This document shows positions 2,935 through 18,179 of a stretch of 28,213 nucleotides of DNA, piece after piece (within the stretch, counting starts at the first letter, position 1; each line of letters begins with the position of its first letter). The stretch is from positions 1 through 28,213 of IMG/VR virus record IMGVR_UViG_3300030103_001634; one strand, given 5' to 3'. A model generated the notes under the pieces. The model saw nothing but the letters and a program-made list of their open reading frames with translations. It ran no database searches and was not told where the DNA came from. A program made the position numbers and the translations under genes. This DNA comes from a virus.

Positions 2935-3439
2935 CCCAGTATTTGCAGAGGGTGAGACTGATGTAATAGCACAACCTAATGCAGTAGGTAACTCATCAAT
3001 AATTAATCAAAATATGAATATAAATCAGGGAGCAACAAGTAAGAATCAATTTGGGAATTTAGTTTGTTCTCAACCCAGTATGAGCTTTACCCCTTTTTAT
3101 ACTGGCAATGATGCTCAAGGTGAAGATACTTATAGCATAAATGAGGGATGGGGTGGTCAAATATCTTTTATGATTCCACTAGGATCTAATAATAAAATCT
3201 GTACTGATTTAGCAAAAGTAAAGCTAAAACTAGCCAAAGAAGAATTAAACAAACAAGTCCATGATAAGCAATTAGTGAGAGTCTTGAAGTGTTCACAACT
3301 CCATGCAAGCGGCTATATGATAAATCCTAAATCAAAGTTTGCTGGTCTTTGTAGTGATGTAATAAATATAAGAAGTTATGTAAAAGCTAATCCTCAGATT
3401 TTTTCTTCAGAGAAGAAACCTCCTTCTTCAAAACCTTAG
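2861..3439 (+). CDS. 192 aa secreted protein with signal peptide
   Basis: The signal sequence is RLQQLALSLLSASLVSSPVFA, with cleavage expected after residue 29. Translation may start at 2861 (MKRLHRM) or at the in-frame ATG at 2879 (MTRLQQ). Both give a functional signal. The mature part has an Asn/Gln-rich segment (NSSIINQNMNINQG), a conserved-looking PSMSFTPFYTG stretch, GWGGQISFMIPLG, and a helical second half with cysteines (CTDLAKVKLKL, then VLKCSQLHASGY, then GLCSDVINIRSY). Similar gene pairs occur in marine cyanophages. Its end overlaps the opposite-strand gene by 53 bases. Function unknown. Confidence 0.65.
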   Translation: MKRLHRMTRLQQLALSLLSASLVSSPVFAEGETDVIAQPNAVGNSSIINQNMNINQGATSKNQFGNLVCSQPSMSFTPFYTGNDAQGEDTYSINEGWGGQISFMIPLGSNNKICTDLAKVKLKLAKEELNKQVHDKQLVRVLKCSQLHASGYMINPKSKFAGLCSDVINIRSYVKANPQIFSSEKKPPSSKP

Positions 3440-3878
3440 TAATTATTTTCTTAAATATTTTTTTTAATTGTGCAACTACAGCTTGAGCAGCGATTCCTCC
3501 AGCTACAGTAACAACTGATGCTGTACCAGCCGCAACAACTGAACTAGCAATGACCTCTGGTGCTGGTATTGGAAATTCTCCAAAGAAAGGTATATTGAAA
3601 GTACCTATGGTTTCTACATTTGAAGTATTTTCTAAGTTTTTTGGGAGGTTCAGCGGTATCTTTTCTTGCTTTATACCTGTTACTTCCTCGGATTGCTCCT
3701 TTTCTTCTTCAGAAGTATCTTCCTTCTCTTCTTCCAAACCCGACTGAACTTGTTCCAGACTTGGGAGCAACAAAGGATCTAAAAAAGGTTCTTCCACTAC
3801 AGGGGGATAAAAAATTGTTTTAGGTGGATTGAGTATATTGTTTGTCTCTGGTAAGTTTGGATAGTACAGTTCGTCCAT
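3387..3878 (-). CDS. 163 aa structural-type protein with Pro-rich, acidic and hydrophobic segments
   Basis: The order of segments is striking. A Pro/Tyr-rich N-terminus (YYPNLPETNN...PPKTIFYPPVV) is followed by an acidic block at about 49-65 (EEEKEDTSEEEKE). Next comes PFFGEFPIPAPEVIAS, an Ala/Val hydrophobic segment at about 108-137, and a lysine-rich amphipathic tail (LKKIFKKIITKVLKK). Proteins with this PIPAPEV + hydrophobic + basic tail plan occur in cyanophages, where some are reported as virion proteins. It starts three bases from a divergent mini-gene and converges on the secreted-protein gene. It is the last gene of the late transcript, so virion association fits. Confidence 0.6.
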   Translation of the reverse strand: MDELYYPNLPETNNILNPPKTIFYPPVVEEPFLDPLLLPSLEQVQSGLEEEKEDTSEEEKEQSEEVTGIKQEKIPLNLPKNLENTSNVETIGTFNIPFFGEFPIPAPEVIASSVVAAGTASVVTVAGGIAAQAVVAQLKKIFKKIITKVLKKEVSSLKKKSED

Positions 3879-3881
3879 TTT

Positions 3882-4010
3882 ATGAAATACGCTATAGCAA
3901 AAGCTTTAATTCCTGTTACATTAATAACATTCTGCGGACTATGTGCTTTAGCTCCACTCTATCTGTCACTATCTATGATGACAAGACAATTAAATCATAA
4001 GTCTAATTAA
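3882..4010 (+). CDS. 42 aa single-pass membrane peptide
   Basis: The frame begins MKYAIAKALIPVTLITFCGL and continues CALAPLYLSLSMMTRQLNHKSN. Residues 8-32 form one hydrophobic helix with a basic N-terminus and a polar tail. It sits on the + strand between - strand genes, 3 bases from the divergent start of the 163 aa gene. Its end overlaps the zinc-ribbon frame (ends 4003) by 8 bases. No clear ribosome-binding site precedes it, so expression is uncertain. It could be a holin-like or membrane-anchored peptide. Confidence 0.35.
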   Translation: MKYAIAKALIPVTLITFCGLCALAPLYLSLSMMTRQLNHKSN

Positions 4011-4134
4011 CAACTTTTGATCTGCAAAATCTAGTTTTACACGCGCCACTACAATAAATTTTTCTTTGCTCCATAGTATTAAAATTTGCACCACAAACAG
4101 GACAAGTTTTTAATAATATACCTTCTACTTTTTT
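4003..4134 (-). CDS. Zinc-ribbon extension reached by -1 frameshift (no start codon of its own)
   Basis: In the -1 frame relative to the 52 aa gene, the sequence reads KK-VEGILLKT CPVCGANF ... IYCSGACKTRF and stops at TAG 4005-4003. CPVC and CSGAC (C-x2-C, then C-x3-C) form a typical treble-clef/zinc-ribbon metal site. Going upstream, the frame meets TAA before any ATG, GTG or TTG, so it cannot start independently ahead of the first cysteines. The overlap holds A AAA AAG at 4134-4128, directly followed by the zero-frame TAG. The predicted fusion is 52 + 41 = 93 residues: helical coil plus zinc ribbon. A one-base homopolymer assembly error would look the same. Confidence 0.6.
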   Translation of the reverse strand, partial: KKVEGILLKTCPVCGANFNTMEQRKIYCSGACKTRFCRSKVVN

Positions 4135-4283
4135 ATGTTTTCTTTTACCTCTTTTGGTTTATTTATTTCCTTCAATAACAGTTGGTAAGCTTGTACACCA
4201 CCTTCAAGTTTTAAAATATACTGTCTTTGATTTATTATTTCCTGTTGCCATTCAAGAATTTGTTTTTCTATAATTTCTTTCAT
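4125..4283 (-). CDS. 52 aa coiled-coil protein, zero-frame product of a frameshift gene
   Basis: ATG is at 4283-4281 and TAG at 4127-4125. The product starts MKEIIEKQILEWQQEIINQR and ends KEVKENIKK. It is one long amphipathic helix with a GG break, probably a coiled coil. The gene directly follows the 104 aa fibre-tip gene with 3 bases between, so it belongs to the late fibre transcript. The last two lysine codons (AAA AAG) are part of a slippery heptamer that can lead into the zinc-ribbon frame. Function unknown; an adaptor or chaperone for a fibre would fit the position. Confidence 0.6.
   Translation of the reverse strand: MKEIIEKQILEWQQEIINQRQYILKLEGGVQAYQLLLKEINKPKEVKENIKK
4128..4152 (-). 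promoter_or_regulatory. Candidate programmed -1 ribosomal frameshift signal
   Basis: The mRNA reads AGAGGT (plus 4152-4147), then 12 bases, then A AAA AAG (4134-4128), then TAG. A AAA AAG is the most efficient -1 slippery heptamer known in bacteria (dnaX, IS911), and both of those use an SD-like stimulator about 10 bases upstream, as here. I see no strong downstream stem-loop; TTTG...CAAA shortly after is only a 4-bp pairing. Confidence 0.6.
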
Positions 4284-4286
4284 ATT

Positions 4287-4601
4287 TTAAACAATAGTAA
4301 GGGTTTCTCCTGAACCAACAGTCACAGTAACACCGCTGTTGATGGTAATAGGACCAGCAGCCATAGCATTTTTACCATTTGTTATTGTGTAATCTGCTGT
4401 AACCGCCTGATCGTTTTCATAAAAGACAGAGTCACTTCCTCCTCCAGTTGGAACGCTACTACCTCCTCCAATCTCCTTTACTGTACCTCCATCGTTGACA
4501 AATAACTTTTGAGCAGAAGTATCTAAAGCAACTTCCCCATTAACAATATCACTTGTAGTAGGTGTGCTTGTACCTCGTTTTAACTTAATAGTATTTGCCA
4601 T
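4287..4601 (-). CDS. 104 aa fibre-tip/tail fibre-like protein
   Basis: The N-terminus (MANTIKLKRGTSTPTTSDIV, then NGEVALDTSAQKLFVNDGG) is the short beta-rich module found at the start of many marine phage fibres. The C-terminal half (SVFYENDQAVTADYTITNGK, then PITINSGVTVTVGSGETLTIV) is a small beta-helix-like capping module. A close copy of this module ends the 266 aa fibre protein (9386-10186). The gene has a good ribosome-binding site (AGGAG, about 9 bases before the ATG). It is likely a trimeric fibre component or cap. Which fibre it belongs to is unknown. Confidence 0.75.
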   Translation of the reverse strand: MANTIKLKRGTSTPTTSDIVNGEVALDTSAQKLFVNDGGTVKEIGGGSSVPTGGGSDSVFYENDQAVTADYTITNGKNAMAAGPITINSGVTVTVGSGETLTIV

Positions 4602-9372: not shown

Positions 9373-9400
9373 ATTATATACACTTTTATACTACAGTCCA
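9373..9400 (-). promoter_or_regulatory. Possible internal promoter before the fibre chaperone gene
   Basis: On the coding strand TGGACT (9400-9395), a 16-base gap, then TATAAT (9378-9373) resemble a weak -35 and a perfect -10. A transcript would begin near the ATG at 9366, so it would be almost leaderless. The stretch overlaps the end of the upstream gene. The AT-rich context makes chance likely. Confidence 0.22.
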
Positions 9401-10186
9401 TGTCTCTCCAGAACCAACTGTAACGGTGACTCCGCTTTGAATAGTTATCGGACCAAAACTACCAGCATTTTTTCCATTAGTTATCGAATAATTTTGTGTA
9501 ATGGTTTGATCATTTTCCCAAAATATTTCATCTGAACCACCGCCCTGTGCTCCAGCACCAGCAACACCCCAACTTAAGTTGCCACTTCCATCAGAAATTA
9601 AAGCATATCCAGCTACAGTCGTGTCAGCATTTGGAAGTTTCCAAACTACATTACCAGCTAAAGTATCGGGTGCTTTAAATCCTACATATTCAGATCCAGC
9701 ACTTGACGGTTCAGATAATCTTAATTCTTTTTGATTATTTATAGTTATGCCATTTTGATCAAAAAAAGTTGTTTCTGCTGTTGCAAAAGTTAATCCTATT
9801 TGATTTGTACCTTTCTTAAAAATGCCTGTTGTACTATCTCCAAAATGAATAGATGGTGCGGAAGCAGAGCCACTAGACGCAGCCAAAACACCAGTAAGGG
9901 TTCCTCCTGATGCTGATAAAAAACCAAAGTTAGTTTGACTTACATTACCTAAAGTAACGAAAGCTGAATTAGCACCATTTCTAATTTTTAAAGTATCTGT
10001 ATCACTATCAATATGTAATTGATATGCTGCAAGGTTAGCAGAACCAGAAGGATCACCAGCTGCACTATTCACTGTTCTTAAGGATTCAAATATATCTTTC
10101 ATTGCTGTTCTTACAGCAGATCCAGTACCATTATCAGGTGAAAAATTACTGCTAGATTCTTTGCCAGTTGAATTAACTCTTGTCAT
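9386..10186 (-). CDS. 266 aa tail fibre protein
   Basis: It starts MTRVNSTGKESSSNFSPDNG and has AMKDIFESLRTVNSAAGDPS, then ASAPSIHFGDSTTGIFKKGT and NQIGLTFATAETTFFDQNG (a repeated phage-fibre motif of GxxFGDxxTGIFxxGxxxIGI type). KAPDTLAGNVVWKLPNADTT and a C-terminal capping module follow: IFWENDQTITQNYSITNGK, then PITIQSGVTVTVGSGETWTVV. The last module matches the one in the 104 aa protein. The gene directly follows the J-like gene with 3 bases between, the usual place of a central or lateral fibre attached to the tip. Confidence 0.8.
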   Translation of the reverse strand: MTRVNSTGKESSSNFSPDNGTGSAVRTAMKDIFESLRTVNSAAGDPSGSANLAAYQLHIDSDTDTLKIRNGANSAFVTLGNVSQTNFGFLSASGGTLTGVLAASSGSASAPSIHFGDSTTGIFKKGTNQIGLTFATAETTFFDQNGITINNQKELRLSEPSSAGSEYVGFKAPDTLAGNVVWKLPNADTTVAGYALISDGSGNLSWGVAGAGAQGGGSDEIFWENDQTITQNYSITNGKNAGSFGPITIQSGVTVTVGSGETWTVV

Positions 10187-13583: not shown

Positions 13584-14162
13584 TTACTTGTTTACAACTT
13601 GAAAAGTATCAACAGAAGAACTTACAACTGTGCTACCTACTAAAGTTTCTCCATAAATAATATTAATTGGTACACCTTGTTTTGAATTATTTAAAAGACC
13701 TGTAAAAATATAACTAGGATCTTGTGGATCTTCTTGCCTTGCAGTATTAGGGGTCACTGGGTCTGGTGTTAATAAATCTGCAACTCCACTAAGTAAAAAG
13801 CTTGTCCCTATTGCTGTTAAAGCACCAGCTATTGTAGTTCCTAAAATTGTTGCTGTAAAAATTCCTCCAACTGCTGATGCAACTGCGCCAGCCCCTAAAA
13901 ATGCGGCTGCTAAAAAAAATACCTCACCATGAACAACAGGAATTATTTTAATATCACTTTTAGTCTGTATATCTAATAAATCTTCAGTAATTCTTACATT
14001 ACCAGCCATAACACAATATTCCTGTTCTTTTATATGTTCCAAAACACCTTTAAAATTATTAATTAAAAAACTAAAAGCTTCTTTAGGACTTTGTGCATTT
14101 ATTTCAAATGTTGATTGTCCTATAAACTTTCTTAATCTGCCATAAATAGTTAATTTAATCAT
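13584..14162 (-). CDS. 192 aa tail assembly protein, lambda gpI-like
   Basis: The N-terminal about 80 residues form a ubiquitin-like beta-grasp (IKLTIYGRLRKFIGQSTFE, then SFLINNFKGVLEHIKEQEY). A hydrophobic Ala/Gly segment follows (FFLAAAFLGAGAVASAVGG, then GTTIAGALTAIGTSFLL) and a C-terminal RQEDPQDPSYIF...GVPINIIYG. This is the lambda gpI pattern. GpI is needed for tail tip assembly together with J, K and L. The gene overlaps the JAMM gene by 8 bases and is 4 bases from J. Confidence 0.88.
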   Translation of the reverse strand: MIKLTIYGRLRKFIGQSTFEINAQSPKEAFSFLINNFKGVLEHIKEQEYCVMAGNVRITEDLLDIQTKSDIKIIPVVHGEVFFLAAAFLGAGAVASAVGGIFTATILGTTIAGALTAIGTSFLLSGVADLLTPDPVTPNTARQEDPQDPSYIFTGLLNNSKQGVPINIIYGETLVGSTVVSSSVDTFQVVNK

Positions 14163-14502
14163 TTATCTCAGATGGATATACAACAATAATAGACTCTGTT
14201 TTAGGTTCAACAAGATAAAAAGGTAAATCATTAAACTTACAACTTATTTTATCAGCATGACTAAATGCCATTTCACCATCAGGATGGCTATGTACAATAC
14301 CAAGAACTTCTCCTTGATCTTCACCAGTTGCATAATCTAAAGGGTCTATAACAAATGACTTTTCTTTATATGCACCTGATATATTTTTACATTTCCAATA
14401 GGTTTCAATACCATCAATATTAATTATTAAGCCGCAAGACTCCTCTGGATAAGCTTCTGTAGCATCTTTAAAAGCGTCTGTAGCCCATGTATATTCTGTC
14501 AT
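14155..14502 (-). CDS. 115 aa JAMM/Mov34 metallopeptidase, lambda gpK N-terminal-like
   Basis: It carries the full JAMM zinc site: Glu21 in PEESCG, then H71-S-H73-P74...S81-x2-D84. Lambda gpK has two domains, JAMM and NlpC/P60 (about 200 aa). This protein is only the JAMM half and ends at ...YPSEIND. The absent cysteine-hydrolase half would leave a peptidase that processes tail proteins but cannot cut peptidoglycan cross-links. Its ATG overlaps the stop of the L-like gene by 1 base (14502), and its end overlaps I. Position between L and I is exactly the lambda order. Confidence 0.88.
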   Translation of the reverse strand: MTEYTWATDAFKDATEAYPEESCGLIINIDGIETYWKCKNISGAYKEKSFVIDPLDYATGEDQGEVLGIVHSHPDGEMAFSHADKISCKFNDLPFYLVEPKTESIIVVYPSEIND

Positions 14503-15125: not shown

Positions 15126-15466
15126 TATGCCTCGAATACCTCTCTAAAAACACAAGATAATCTTACTCTGTTTAAAAATGGAATTGATCTTGGAAAAGAA
15201 TCACAAACAAATTTTCTCGAAGATGATTCACTAGGCAAAGTGTAATCAAAAGATGCTCCATCATCAATTCTTGCATTTAAAAAATCAAGTGCTGTAGTTG
15301 CGTCAGCCTGAGATAATTCAAAAACTAAATTTACAGATAAAGCGTTCTGGTTTAATCCTTCAGTTAATCTCTGCTCAAACCCATCACCAAAAGAAATTAC
15401 GTTTACAGATGGTTTTGGAGTAATTCTTGTGTTATAAACTGGTTTTGCAATTGGAAATGTAGCCAT
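15125..15466 (-). CDS. 113 aa minor tail protein, lambda gpM-like
   Basis: The protein reads FPIAKPVYNTRITPKPSVNV, then ISFGDGFEQRLTEGLNQNAL, ATTALDFLNARIDDGASFDY and FLNRVRLSCVFREVFEA. The ...SFGDGYxQR...G(I/L)N... and ...F(L)xxRxGxxFxxxxP motifs are diagnostic of phage minor tail protein M (distal tail component next to the tape measure). It shares a 1-base overlap with tape measure (15466) and L (15125), as in lambda order H-M-L. Confidence 0.9.
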   Translation of the reverse strand: MATFPIAKPVYNTRITPKPSVNVISFGDGFEQRLTEGLNQNALSVNLVFELSQADATTALDFLNARIDDGASFDYTLPSESSSRKFVCDSFPRSIPFLNRVRLSCVFREVFEA

Positions 15467-17625
15467 CAGTTTAATAAACCTCCAGATCGTTTTTGATTTA
15501 TTATCTCAGCTTGAATCGCTGCTGCAAGCTGTTCTCCAAACTGATTAGCATCTGCATCATTACCTTGAACAGAAGAGCCTGAAGCATCAACATTTACAGT
15601 AATATTATTTACTACTGATTGTCCGCCAGATATTTGATTATTTGGTGTTATAAATCCTCTGCTGGTTCCCATTGACAGCAATTCTGGTCCCTTTTCACCT
15701 ACTAGGAAAGTTTTGCCAGCAGCAACTTGACCACCACTTGCTTTTCCACCACCAAAAACTTTACCTAAAAATCCCCCTATTTTATCACCAATACCTGAGA
15801 CTGCTTGTTGAATAGCGACCTCAATTAATTTTCTTTTTAATTTATTTAAAACACTTACAGCCGCTTCAGCTAAAGTCTTTGTACCTTCTACTGCATCAGC
15901 TAGGTTTGAAACAATACCTTTTTCAATATCTTGACCTATATCCATAAATTTTTGCTTTAGTGCTTTAGCTGCTTTTTCTTGTTCCTTAAGTTTATTTACA
16001 CCATCCTCCAACAAATTATTTTTCTTTTCTAAATCAATTAATTCATCTGCTAAATCTTTTCCAAATTTTTCTGTTAACTCTTTTCTTTTTTGATCTAGCT
16101 CAAATTGTTTTCTACCTTCCTCTGTACCAATTTTTAATTTTGCCTCAATCTCTTTTAATTCTTTATTTTTTGCTTTTAAAGCATTTTTTGATTTTTCAAA
16201 GTCTTTAAATAATTCAATACCTTGAGCTATTATTAATTTTTCTTGTAACTTTTCTAAATCGCTTTCTAAACCTAAAAGTTGCGCCCTTTGATCTGCGTGA
16301 AATATTAAAAATGGTTGTTTATCAGCTTTAGCTTTAGCTTCTTTAAGTTTGTTTATTTTTTTTGTGACAGATTCTATTTCTGACTGTATTTCTGAAGAAG
16401 TTCCCTCTTGAAGTAATTTATTAAATTCTTTTTGTTTATTTATTGCTTTGATAATACTATTCGTTAAAAAGACAAATCCACTGGCTAAAGCAATTAAAGG
16501 AAGCGCATTTGCAGCCATTGTTAAAGCCCCAACTGCAACAGTCAGTTTTGAAACGCTGCCAGCAGCTAATAAACTTGTAGCACTTACACCTGTTAATCCA
16601 CTAGATGCAATTAAAGATTTTACTCCAACCATACTAAAACCAGCAAGTAAAGCTTTTATTTGCAAAACAGCAAAAGGAATAGCAACGCTTAAACCTTTCA
16701 CCGCTAAACCAACACCAGCAATAACTGCTGCCGTTTGCCCACCTTCTGAATTTAGAAAATTTACTAAACTTGTTAAACCTTCTACAGCAGCTGTCAAAGC
16801 TGGATTTAGAGCTTCGCCTAAAACTTCTGAAAAATCTCTAAAAGATTCTCCTAAAGAATCAGTTGCGCCAGCTAAGCCTGTAGCAGCAGCTTGTGCTAAT
16901 TGGTTATAACTTTCTTCAACAATTCCTAAAATCATATCGTGTGCTTCAGCTACTTTATTTGTCTTCATTAATTGTTTTATTACATCTGTCTGAGTCTTTG
17001 TAAAAGCTATACCAGATCGGTTTAAATTTGATAAATTTCTCTCTGGATCTTGCAAAGCTTTAGCCAATTGCATGAAAGAAGTACTAACATCAACTTGGTT
17101 GACTTCTGCAATATCTGCAGCTGATTGCGCAACACGTGTGTACGCATCGACTCCAATATTTCTAAAACTTGTTAATAAGTTAAAACCTCTAGTAAAGTCT
17201 TCTTGGTCAAATAAAGTTTGTTTGCCTAATTTATCTGCAGCTTTTTGTAGTTCAGTTAAAGCAGAAGTCCCCGCACCTAAATTTCTTAAACCTTGTGTAA
17301 GTATTGCAACGTCTGCTTCTCGTTCTGAAAAAGTTCTTAAAGCTGTGTTTAGAGTATGAAAAGCTGCGCCAAGACCAACTAAAGGAACAAGTAAAGGAGC
17401 TATAGAAGAAGTTAAAGTAGTAAAACCACTAGCCGCAGCGGTTGCCCCTGCCCCTGTAGCCGTTAACCCTGCGGGTAAAGGTTTTAAACTACCAGCAGTT
17501 GCTTTTAATTTTCCACTAGTACCAGTAATTGTTGTATTAAATTTCTTAGCTCTATCGTCAACATTTTTTAGTGCTGTAACAGCTTGTGTGGCGTTTACTC
17601 TTAGTTCTACATTGGAAACTGCCAC
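15466..17625 (-). CDS. 719 aa tape measure protein
   Basis: It starts with GTG at 17625-17623 (MAVSNVELRVNATQAVTALK) and is the longest helical protein of the module. Domains in order: an Ala/Gly-rich tail-length N-terminus, a tape-measure core (AVAILTQ-like LTELQKAADKLGKQT, then SMQLAKALQDPERNL), hydrophobic segments about 295-395, a coiled-coil region about 395-570, and a C-terminal GGGKASGGQVAAGKTFLVGE with KGPELLSMG and ITPNNQ. Length sets tail length; at about 1.5 angstrom per residue this predicts roughly 105-110 nm. It follows the GT chaperone frame and precedes M. The SD-like AAGGAG lies about 13 bases before GTG. Confidence 0.92.
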   Translation of the reverse strand: MAVSNVELRVNATQAVTALKNVDDRAKKFNTTITGTSGKLKATAGSLKPLPAGLTATGAGATAAASGFTTLTSSIAPLLVPLVGLGAAFHTLNTALRTFSEREADVAILTQGLRNLGAGTSALTELQKAADKLGKQTLFDQEDFTRGFNLLTSFRNIGVDAYTRVAQSAADIAEVNQVDVSTSFMQLAKALQDPERNLSNLNRSGIAFTKTQTDVIKQLMKTNKVAEAHDMILGIVEESYNQLAQAAATGLAGATDSLGESFRDFSEVLGEALNPALTAAVEGLTSLVNFLNSEGGQTAAVIAGVGLAVKGLSVAIPFAVLQIKALLAGFSMVGVKSLIASSGLTGVSATSLLAAGSVSKLTVAVGALTMAANALPLIALASGFVFLTNSIIKAINKQKEFNKLLQEGTSSEIQSEIESVTKKINKLKEAKAKADKQPFLIFHADQRAQLLGLESDLEKLQEKLIIAQGIELFKDFEKSKNALKAKNKELKEIEAKLKIGTEEGRKQFELDQKRKELTEKFGKDLADELIDLEKKNNLLEDGVNKLKEQEKAAKALKQKFMDIGQDIEKGIVSNLADAVEGTKTLAEAAVSVLNKLKRKLIEVAIQQAVSGIGDKIGGFLGKVFGGGKASGGQVAAGKTFLVGEKGPELLSMGTSRGFITPNNQISGGQSVVNNITVNVDASGSSVQGNDADANQFGEQLAAAIQAEIINQKRSGGLLN

Positions 17626-17643
17626 GATTAAATAATATCTCCT

Positions 17644-17838
17644 TCAACTATACTTTGATTTTCTCTTAATAGCATCTGCCTGTTTTTTTTCTCTATCATA
17701 CTTTAGTTCATAATAACCAGCAAAAAATATTAATTCTTCATCAGTTAAATGAGTTCTTAACTCACTTACGGTCTTACCTAATTCTGTTGCTAGGAAGAAC
17801 TCAAAATTTAGCCAGTTATCCCCCTTTAAGATTCCTTT
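17644..17838 (-). CDS. gpT-like extension of the G/GT tail assembly chaperone (-1 frame)
   Basis: In the -1 frame from the 117 aa gene, the sequence KGILKGDNWLNFEFFLATEL followed by TVSELRTHLTDEELIFFAGY and YELKYDREKKQ ends at TGA 17646-17644. The combination TELGxTVxELRxxLTxEEL...YYEL is the T-domain motif of tail assembly chaperones. No ATG, GTG or TTG starts it. Slippage at A AAG (17838-17835) joins residue 114 of G to 64 codons here, giving a 178 aa GT protein. The -1 frame is closed upstream by TGA, so the slip must occur within about 7 codons. GT binds the tape measure. Confidence 0.75.
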   Translation of the reverse strand, partial: KGILKGDNWLNFEFFLATELGKTVSELRTHLTDEELIFFAGYYELKYDREKKQADAIKRKSKYS

Positions 17839-18179
17839 GCGTTTTCAATATTTGCATTTGGATCAACATTAAATAAAAATAGTTCTATCTCATTTAAAAC
17901 AGATTCAGGTAAATCATTTTGCAAACTGGCAAAATCAGAAGGGTGAAAAGCTTTAGTTCCATCTTCTTTTTGTGCTAATTGACAAAGCATATGTGTTGAA
18001 ACTGTAATAGCGTCATCACTCCCAGCCCTTTGAGTAGCTCTTGCTCTGTCTGCTCTTGTAATAGCGGGAAAATATAAAGTCGTAACTACATTTCCCTCAG
18101 AGTCTTTAACTTCAAATTTTCTTCTTTTACTTAAATCAAAAGCTTCTCTTAGTATTTCTAAAGTTCTTTTATCTGACAT
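17826..18179 (-). CDS. 117 aa tail assembly chaperone, lambda gpG-like
   Basis: The product reads TLEILREAFDLSKRRKFEVK, then YFPAITRADRARATQRAGSD, VSTHMLCQLAQKEDGTKAF and LNEIELFLFNVDPNAN. Location between the tail tube and tape measure genes and a linked -1 frame (T) identify it as the G component. G coats the tape measure as a chaperone before tube polymerisation. It is 3 bases downstream of the tube gene. The C-terminus ENAKES runs into the slippage zone. Confidence 0.8.
   Translation of the reverse strand: MSDKRTLEILREAFDLSKRRKFEVKDSEGNVVTTLYFPAITRADRARATQRAGSDDAITVSTHMLCQLAQKEDGTKAFHPSDFASLQNDLPESVLNEIELFLFNVDPNANIENAKES

Follow-up and report, generated by a model that had tools for sequence, protein, structure and literature searches.

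A probable -1 frameshift joining small helical proteins to a start-less Cys4 finger in the fibre region of marine phages

Introduction

Can a short phage gene that stops directly behind an A_AAA_AAG heptamer also supply, through a programmed -1 frameshift, the beginning of a second protein whose cysteine-rich domain has no start codon of its own? This question is raised by a site in a 28,213-nt virus DNA (the window, meaning the whole stretch that was analysed). Among phages, frameshift signals have been described chiefly from tail chaperones, capsids and transposases; start-less -1 open reading frames are missed by gene finders. A preliminary description of the window had proposed that such a frameshift fuses a 52-aa coiled coil to a zinc ribbon without a start codon, a proposal that, some details aside, the comparative data given below support.

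The window encodes a portal protein that is 80% identical to the portals of Prochlorococcus phages MED4-184 and P-HS2. This points to Prochlorococcus, the most abundant photosynthetic bacterium of the ocean, as the most likely host. In the example genome of Prochlorococcus MIT 9201, one tRNA-Lys, with anticodon UUU, was found among 38 tRNA matches. A single tRNA-Lys(UUU) is the slip-prone situation also known from E. coli (PMC5009743).

Layout of the site

The features of the site are collected in Table 1. The -1 frame opens from 4128 with GTA GAA GGT and comprises 41 codons with the translation VEGILLKTCPVCGANFNTMEQRKIYCSGACKTRFCRSKVVN. It is limited upstream by a TAA at 4161-4159, and no ATG, GTG or TTG precedes its first cysteine. 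The gene end, the start-less frame with its upstream TAA and the AGAGGT hexamer are all as the preliminary description had given them, and its A-run is also present, shifted by one base from the 4128-4133 reported there. Only two other in-frame A_AAA_AAG heptamers occur among the window's own genes. The short spacing to the upstream gene recurs in most of the related loci, with 3 nt or a TAATG overlap after fibre-region genes, and a homologue of the downstream gene also adjoins a finger-less coil in the cultured phage P-RSP2.

Table 1. Features of the frameshift site in the window
Feature	Position	Strand	Remarks
Upstream fibre-type gene	4287-4601	minus	C-terminal GPITI.SGVTVTVGSGET; its stop is followed by 3 nt and the coil ATG
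0-frame gene, 52 aa	4125-4283	minus	helix 2-40 and flexible linker; ends ATA AAA AAG TAG
SD-like AGAGGT	4147-4152	minus	12 nt 5' of the heptamer; possible stimulator
Slippery heptamer A_AAA_AAG	4128-4134	minus	run of six A (4134-4129) and final G (4128)
0-frame stop TAG	4125-4127	minus	immediately 3' of the heptamer
-1 frame ORF, 41-aa Cys4 finger	4003-4128	minus	CxxC-x13-CxxxC; start-less; stop TAG at 4005-4003
Conserved downstream gene	3387-3878	minus	proline-rich; C-terminus hydrophobic/basic

Two small, putative membrane-like ORFs on the plus strand (3882-4010 and 3620-3823) overlap the intergenic region and the 163-aa gene. The C-terminal motif NGKNA..GPITI.SGVTVTVGSGET is common to two minus-strand fibre genes, the upstream gene of Table 1 and another at 9386-10186, which suggests a repeated or exchangeable fibre tip.

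Predicted products

The helix and the finger were folded with AF2 as separate inputs. The 52-aa protein is predicted as a single helix over residues 2-40 (block pLDDT 94-98) followed by a linker of low confidence, and a coiled coil is plausible for this helix. The heptamer sits in the flexible tail, so that the slip would fall in the linker between two predicted folded parts. The finger model (pLDDT 87) comprises strands at residues 5-8 and 15-18 and a helix at 28-40. The CxxC knuckle, the second Cys pair at the start of the helix and the strand-strand-helix order are those of a treble clef, and the four Cys are invariant in alignment A7. The finger is thus predicted to be a Cys4 treble clef that probably binds zinc; the Cys4 domain of the preliminary description stands, while the zinc ribbon fold given there is replaced.

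The best Foldseek match of the finger is gyrase-bound YacG (4tma, TM 0.72, prob 0.94), which lies below significance; an FCS finger is also among its nearest solved folds, again not significantly. The finger resembles these YacG/FCS-type Cys4 treble clefs in fold, whereas its Cys spacing differs. An assignment to the YacG gyrase inhibitor was rejected (Pfam/NCBIfam E 0.05-0.07, with Pfam at E 0.068; NCBIfam 13 bits versus a cut-off of 83), and the fold and profile comparisons, all sub-significant, gave no supporting sign of gyrase binding. An HNH endonuclease was likewise rejected, as the finger has 41 aa and no HNH domain match, and as the HNH PHROGs that align do so only through an accessory Cys4 finger, which some of them carry. 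Matches of the finger to known families were thus confined to sub-threshold Pfam/NCBIfam hits and HNH-associated PHROG fingers, and no function-bearing homologue of the helix or the finger was found.

Conservation among viral relatives

Querying IMG/VR with the 52-aa protein returned 60 loci, or 61 with the window. The A_AAA_AAG heptamer, the adjoining TAG or TAA and the finger in the -1 frame are kept in all 61, well in excess of chance, the consensus of the -1 frame being V-x-G-x-L..CP.C..F.T.EQR..YC..AC. Finger-profile searches and a search with a second coil family extended the set to 138 distinct motif hits. Among these, 128 carry an in-frame A_AAA_AA(G/A) with an open 0-frame and the finger in the -1 frame, eight lack a slippery site and encode the finger as a stand-alone ORF that begins with an ATG, one is a spurious hit (L006) and one, L260, is a single-frame helix-finger fusion, the only one seen. 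Given that 128 different virus sequences retain the slip site, the frameshift arrangement is almost certainly real, and it has not been described before. The preliminary description had named homologues as a check, with joint conservation of heptamer and finger frame speaking for a frameshift and an uninterrupted frame against it; the first was found, and the second in L260 alone. In L260, an internal helix deletion of ~50 bp around position 1899 brings helix and finger into one frame, and could be genuine or an assembly chimera.

The surroundings of the heptamer vary. In the earlier set of 90, the 0-frame stop is found anywhere from 1 to 10 codons past it, and the A-run has 6 or 7 A in 80 of 89 sites and 9-10 A in 6 of 89. 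What is kept is therefore the heptamer and its codon phase. This bears on transcriptional slippage, in which RNA polymerase would add an A within the run and the altered mRNA would encode the fusion. The poly-A at the junction and the few runs of 9-10 A would suit such a process, but most runs are shorter than the length of about 9 A from which selection against slippage is evident in many bacteria (PMC1088944); moreover, slippage of the polymerase needs neither the A_AAA_AAG phase nor the final G, yet both are kept as the run length varies. We consider this explanation improbable.

A canonical start ahead of the finger is absent in 85 of 89 sites. The heptamer is kept where an ATG is absent and missing where the finger has one, as in all eight slippery-less fingers. 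These observations weigh on a second alternative, that the finger is translated independently by termination-reinitiation past the coil stop, from a non-canonical start such as ATA. An ATA is common 3 codons past the junction in loci with the window's helix family (coil A), and stand-alone fingers do exist. Reinitiation would nevertheless have to do without ATG, GTG or TTG at nearly every site, leaves the reciprocal occurrence of heptamer and ATG aside, and meets a 0-frame stop that can lie as much as 10 codons into the finger frame in the second helix family (coil B), where stop adjacency to the heptamer is thus not required. It is less probable still than transcriptional slippage, and -1 ribosomal frameshifting remains the preferred reading.

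Selection on the heptamer and the finger frame

The heptamer codons are invariant in coil A loci (AAA 54/54, AAG 54/54). The 0-frame stop is TAG in 52 of these loci and TAA in 2, and the first codon of the -1 frame is GTA in 54/54, while the remaining Val codons of the finger vary; a GTA as first -1 codon fixes the 0-frame stop as TAG or TAA. At the 52 non-redundant sites, the wobble base ahead of the heptamer is always A, whichever the codon (GAA, GTA, GCA, ATA, CAA, ACA or AAA), and the Lys pair is always AAA-AAG or AAA-AAA, though AAG accounts for 21% of Lys codons. Codon usage on its own makes this improbable: the log10 P is about -16 for the wobble base; for the Lys pairs, when all are scored as AAA-AAG, it is about -41. 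Both values are for 52 sites of <90% identity with shared ancestry ignored.

The finger frame has a median dN/dS of 0.19 (mean dS 1.1) and is under purifying selection, as judged from the aligned sequences. Homopolymer indels are common errors and IMG/VR contigs are metagenomic assemblies, so a once-single frame could in principle have been split by a sequencing error or by decay into a pseudogene. Such an origin is hardly credible in view of this dN/dS, of the identical split in 128 distinct sequences that differ in linker length and in the place of the stop, and of the truncated helix in L260, the sole single-frame version.

Natural controls and carriers

Coil B (MARKTTEELQQELKTLQKNYEEAVQVQKNCQNRAIAINAILADR...) has no sequence relation to the helix of the window. 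Where it is followed by the finger, A_AAA_AAG lies near the 0-frame end in 30 of 31 members, the remaining one having A_AAA_AAA; where the finger is lacking, A_AAA_AAG occurs in 0 of 7. For this coupling, Fisher's test gives 6e-7, a number to be read as a guide only since the members are distinct but related. The finger-less form is found in the cultured Prochlorococcus siphoviruses MED4-184, MED4-117 and P-HS2 and in the cultured Prochlorococcus podoviruses P-RSP2, P-GSP1 and P-SSP2/3. Stand-alone fingers occupy the same slot, 3' of a fibre-region gene, followed in several loci by a conserved membrane-protein gene, and in two of these loci a small helical gene of its own precedes the finger. 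Another small Cys4 protein (MKCYWCDNELIWGGDIDIDESM..NLSCPKCFSEVEILKKRDAFD) is encoded 3' of stand-alone fingers in L119 (4421-4582), L312 (808-969) and L314 (3464-3628).

Carrier contigs include siphoviruses with a P-HS2-type portal and T7-like podoviruses with a P-GSP1-type portal; the cassette thus crosses phage families. An exchange of unrelated helices over near-identical fingers was looked for by comparing loci whose fingers are up to 99% identical. Their helices have 55-62% DNA identity, too near the null maximum of 0.60, so that swapping is unproven by this comparison. Searches by tblastn with the coil, the finger or the fusion found no frameshift form in cultured phages, and no homologues were found in 84,980 bacterial and archaeal genomes.

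Stimulators and slip rate

Pairing with the anti-SD at <= -4.5 kcal/mol is predicted upstream of 72% of sites versus 39% of shuffles. Some 15 loci are without the SD-like AGAGGT, roughly one site in four lacks an SD-like motif, and some lineages are without any; a universal SD stimulator was therefore rejected. The SD-like element that the preliminary description had pointed out is present in the window and is not universal among the relatives. A conserved 3' RNA structure was not found (single-strand fold z +1.5; alifold -1.45 kcal/mol and a single covarying pair). When stimulators are present, A_AAA_AAG ranks in the top three heptamers of E. coli, rather than being the single strongest bacterial slip site as had been proposed, and there heptamers without a stimulator reach at most tenfold over a ~0.05% background (PMC4066793). 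Given these E. coli figures, the partial SD-like motif and the lack of a conserved 3' stimulator, the slip rate could be well under 1%.

Proposed expression of the cassette

Very probably, -1 programmed ribosomal frameshifting gives two proteins from one start, the helix and the helix with the finger. Most ribosomes would stop at the TAG and yield the 52-aa helical protein. A fraction would slip by -1 on A_AAA_AAG, where both Lys tRNAs would re-pair one base back, the two slippery Lys codons being presumably read by the host's only tRNA-Lys(UUU). Slipped ribosomes would then read on in the -1 frame and add, via the flexible linker, the predicted treble-clef domain. As the major helix and the minor helix-finger would share their N-terminus, they could co-assemble in the manner of IS3 OrfA/OrfAB or of extended phage coat proteins, and the frameshift may serve to keep finger-bearing chains few within a helical oligomer or complex that is produced together with the tail fibres. 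This minority role is suggested by the fact that the helix is exchangeable and found alone, and that the finger is found alone with its own start. The product may act at the fibre itself, or its target may be a nucleic acid or a part of the host.

A wider proposal is doubtful, and we offer it as speculation: a frameshift-coupled module might move among unrelated marine phages, with the heptamer as the fixed junction and with interchangeable fibre-locus helices bearing a minor dose of the finger, and the sub-stoichiometric finger might act on a host or nucleic-acid target.

Relation to known frameshift systems

Neither frameshifting nor the heptamer nor the finger fold is new in itself. No description of the gene family, of exchangeable helices with one finger or of its presence in sipho- and podovirus fibre regions was found in the open-access literature, and a literature search on frameshifting in cyanophages found nothing relevant.

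The site resembles E. coli dnaX in its A_AAA_AAG, in the single tRNA-Lys(UUU) and, in part of the phage sites, in the 5' SD-like element; in dnaX, however, the frameshift leads to a shorter product, whereas the phage site adds a domain and does so without a conserved 3' stem-loop. Frameshifting that yields a short major product and a minor one with an extra domain, as proposed here for a phage gene close to structural genes, is known for T3/T7 gene 10 and other extended phage structural genes (e.g. with an Ig-like domain; PMC5009743). Unlike in those genes, the domain added here would be a Cys4 finger, the base is a helix of 52-75 aa and the locus lies 3' of the tail fibres. IS3-family OrfA/OrfAB share the A_AAA_AAG-type slip and the short and fused proteins with a common N-terminal region, but the phage gene has no transposase domain and a downstream structure was not found. 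In the cassette, a widespread signal lies in a phage gene of another kind, and natural controls come with it: the helix is alone, the finger is alone, or the two are joined only with the heptamer. Frameshifting in Prochlorococcus and its phages could be tested cleanly on this cassette, and its example suggests a fresh look at other small ORFs that lack a start and follow short phage genes.

Lambda-type G/GT also relies on a -1 frameshift, in a short phage gene and close to its 3' end, but differs in gene, position and added domain. The 52-aa gene was rejected as a tail assembly chaperone G/GT, as it sits 3' of fibre genes and not between the major tail protein and the tape measure (15466-17625). 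A 117-aa gene does lie between these two genes, at 17640-18179 on the minus strand; its -1 frame continues ..KRKGILKGDNWLNFEFFLATELGKTVSELRTHLTDEELIFFAGYYELKYDREKKQADAIKRKSKYS and it has no A_AAA_AAG. From its sequence and place, it is likely the window's own G/GT tail-chaperone frameshift. On the same strand, 14155-14502 encodes a JAB/MPN-type protease domain (Pfam Prok-JAB 3e-11), which is usual in lambda-like tail tip genes.
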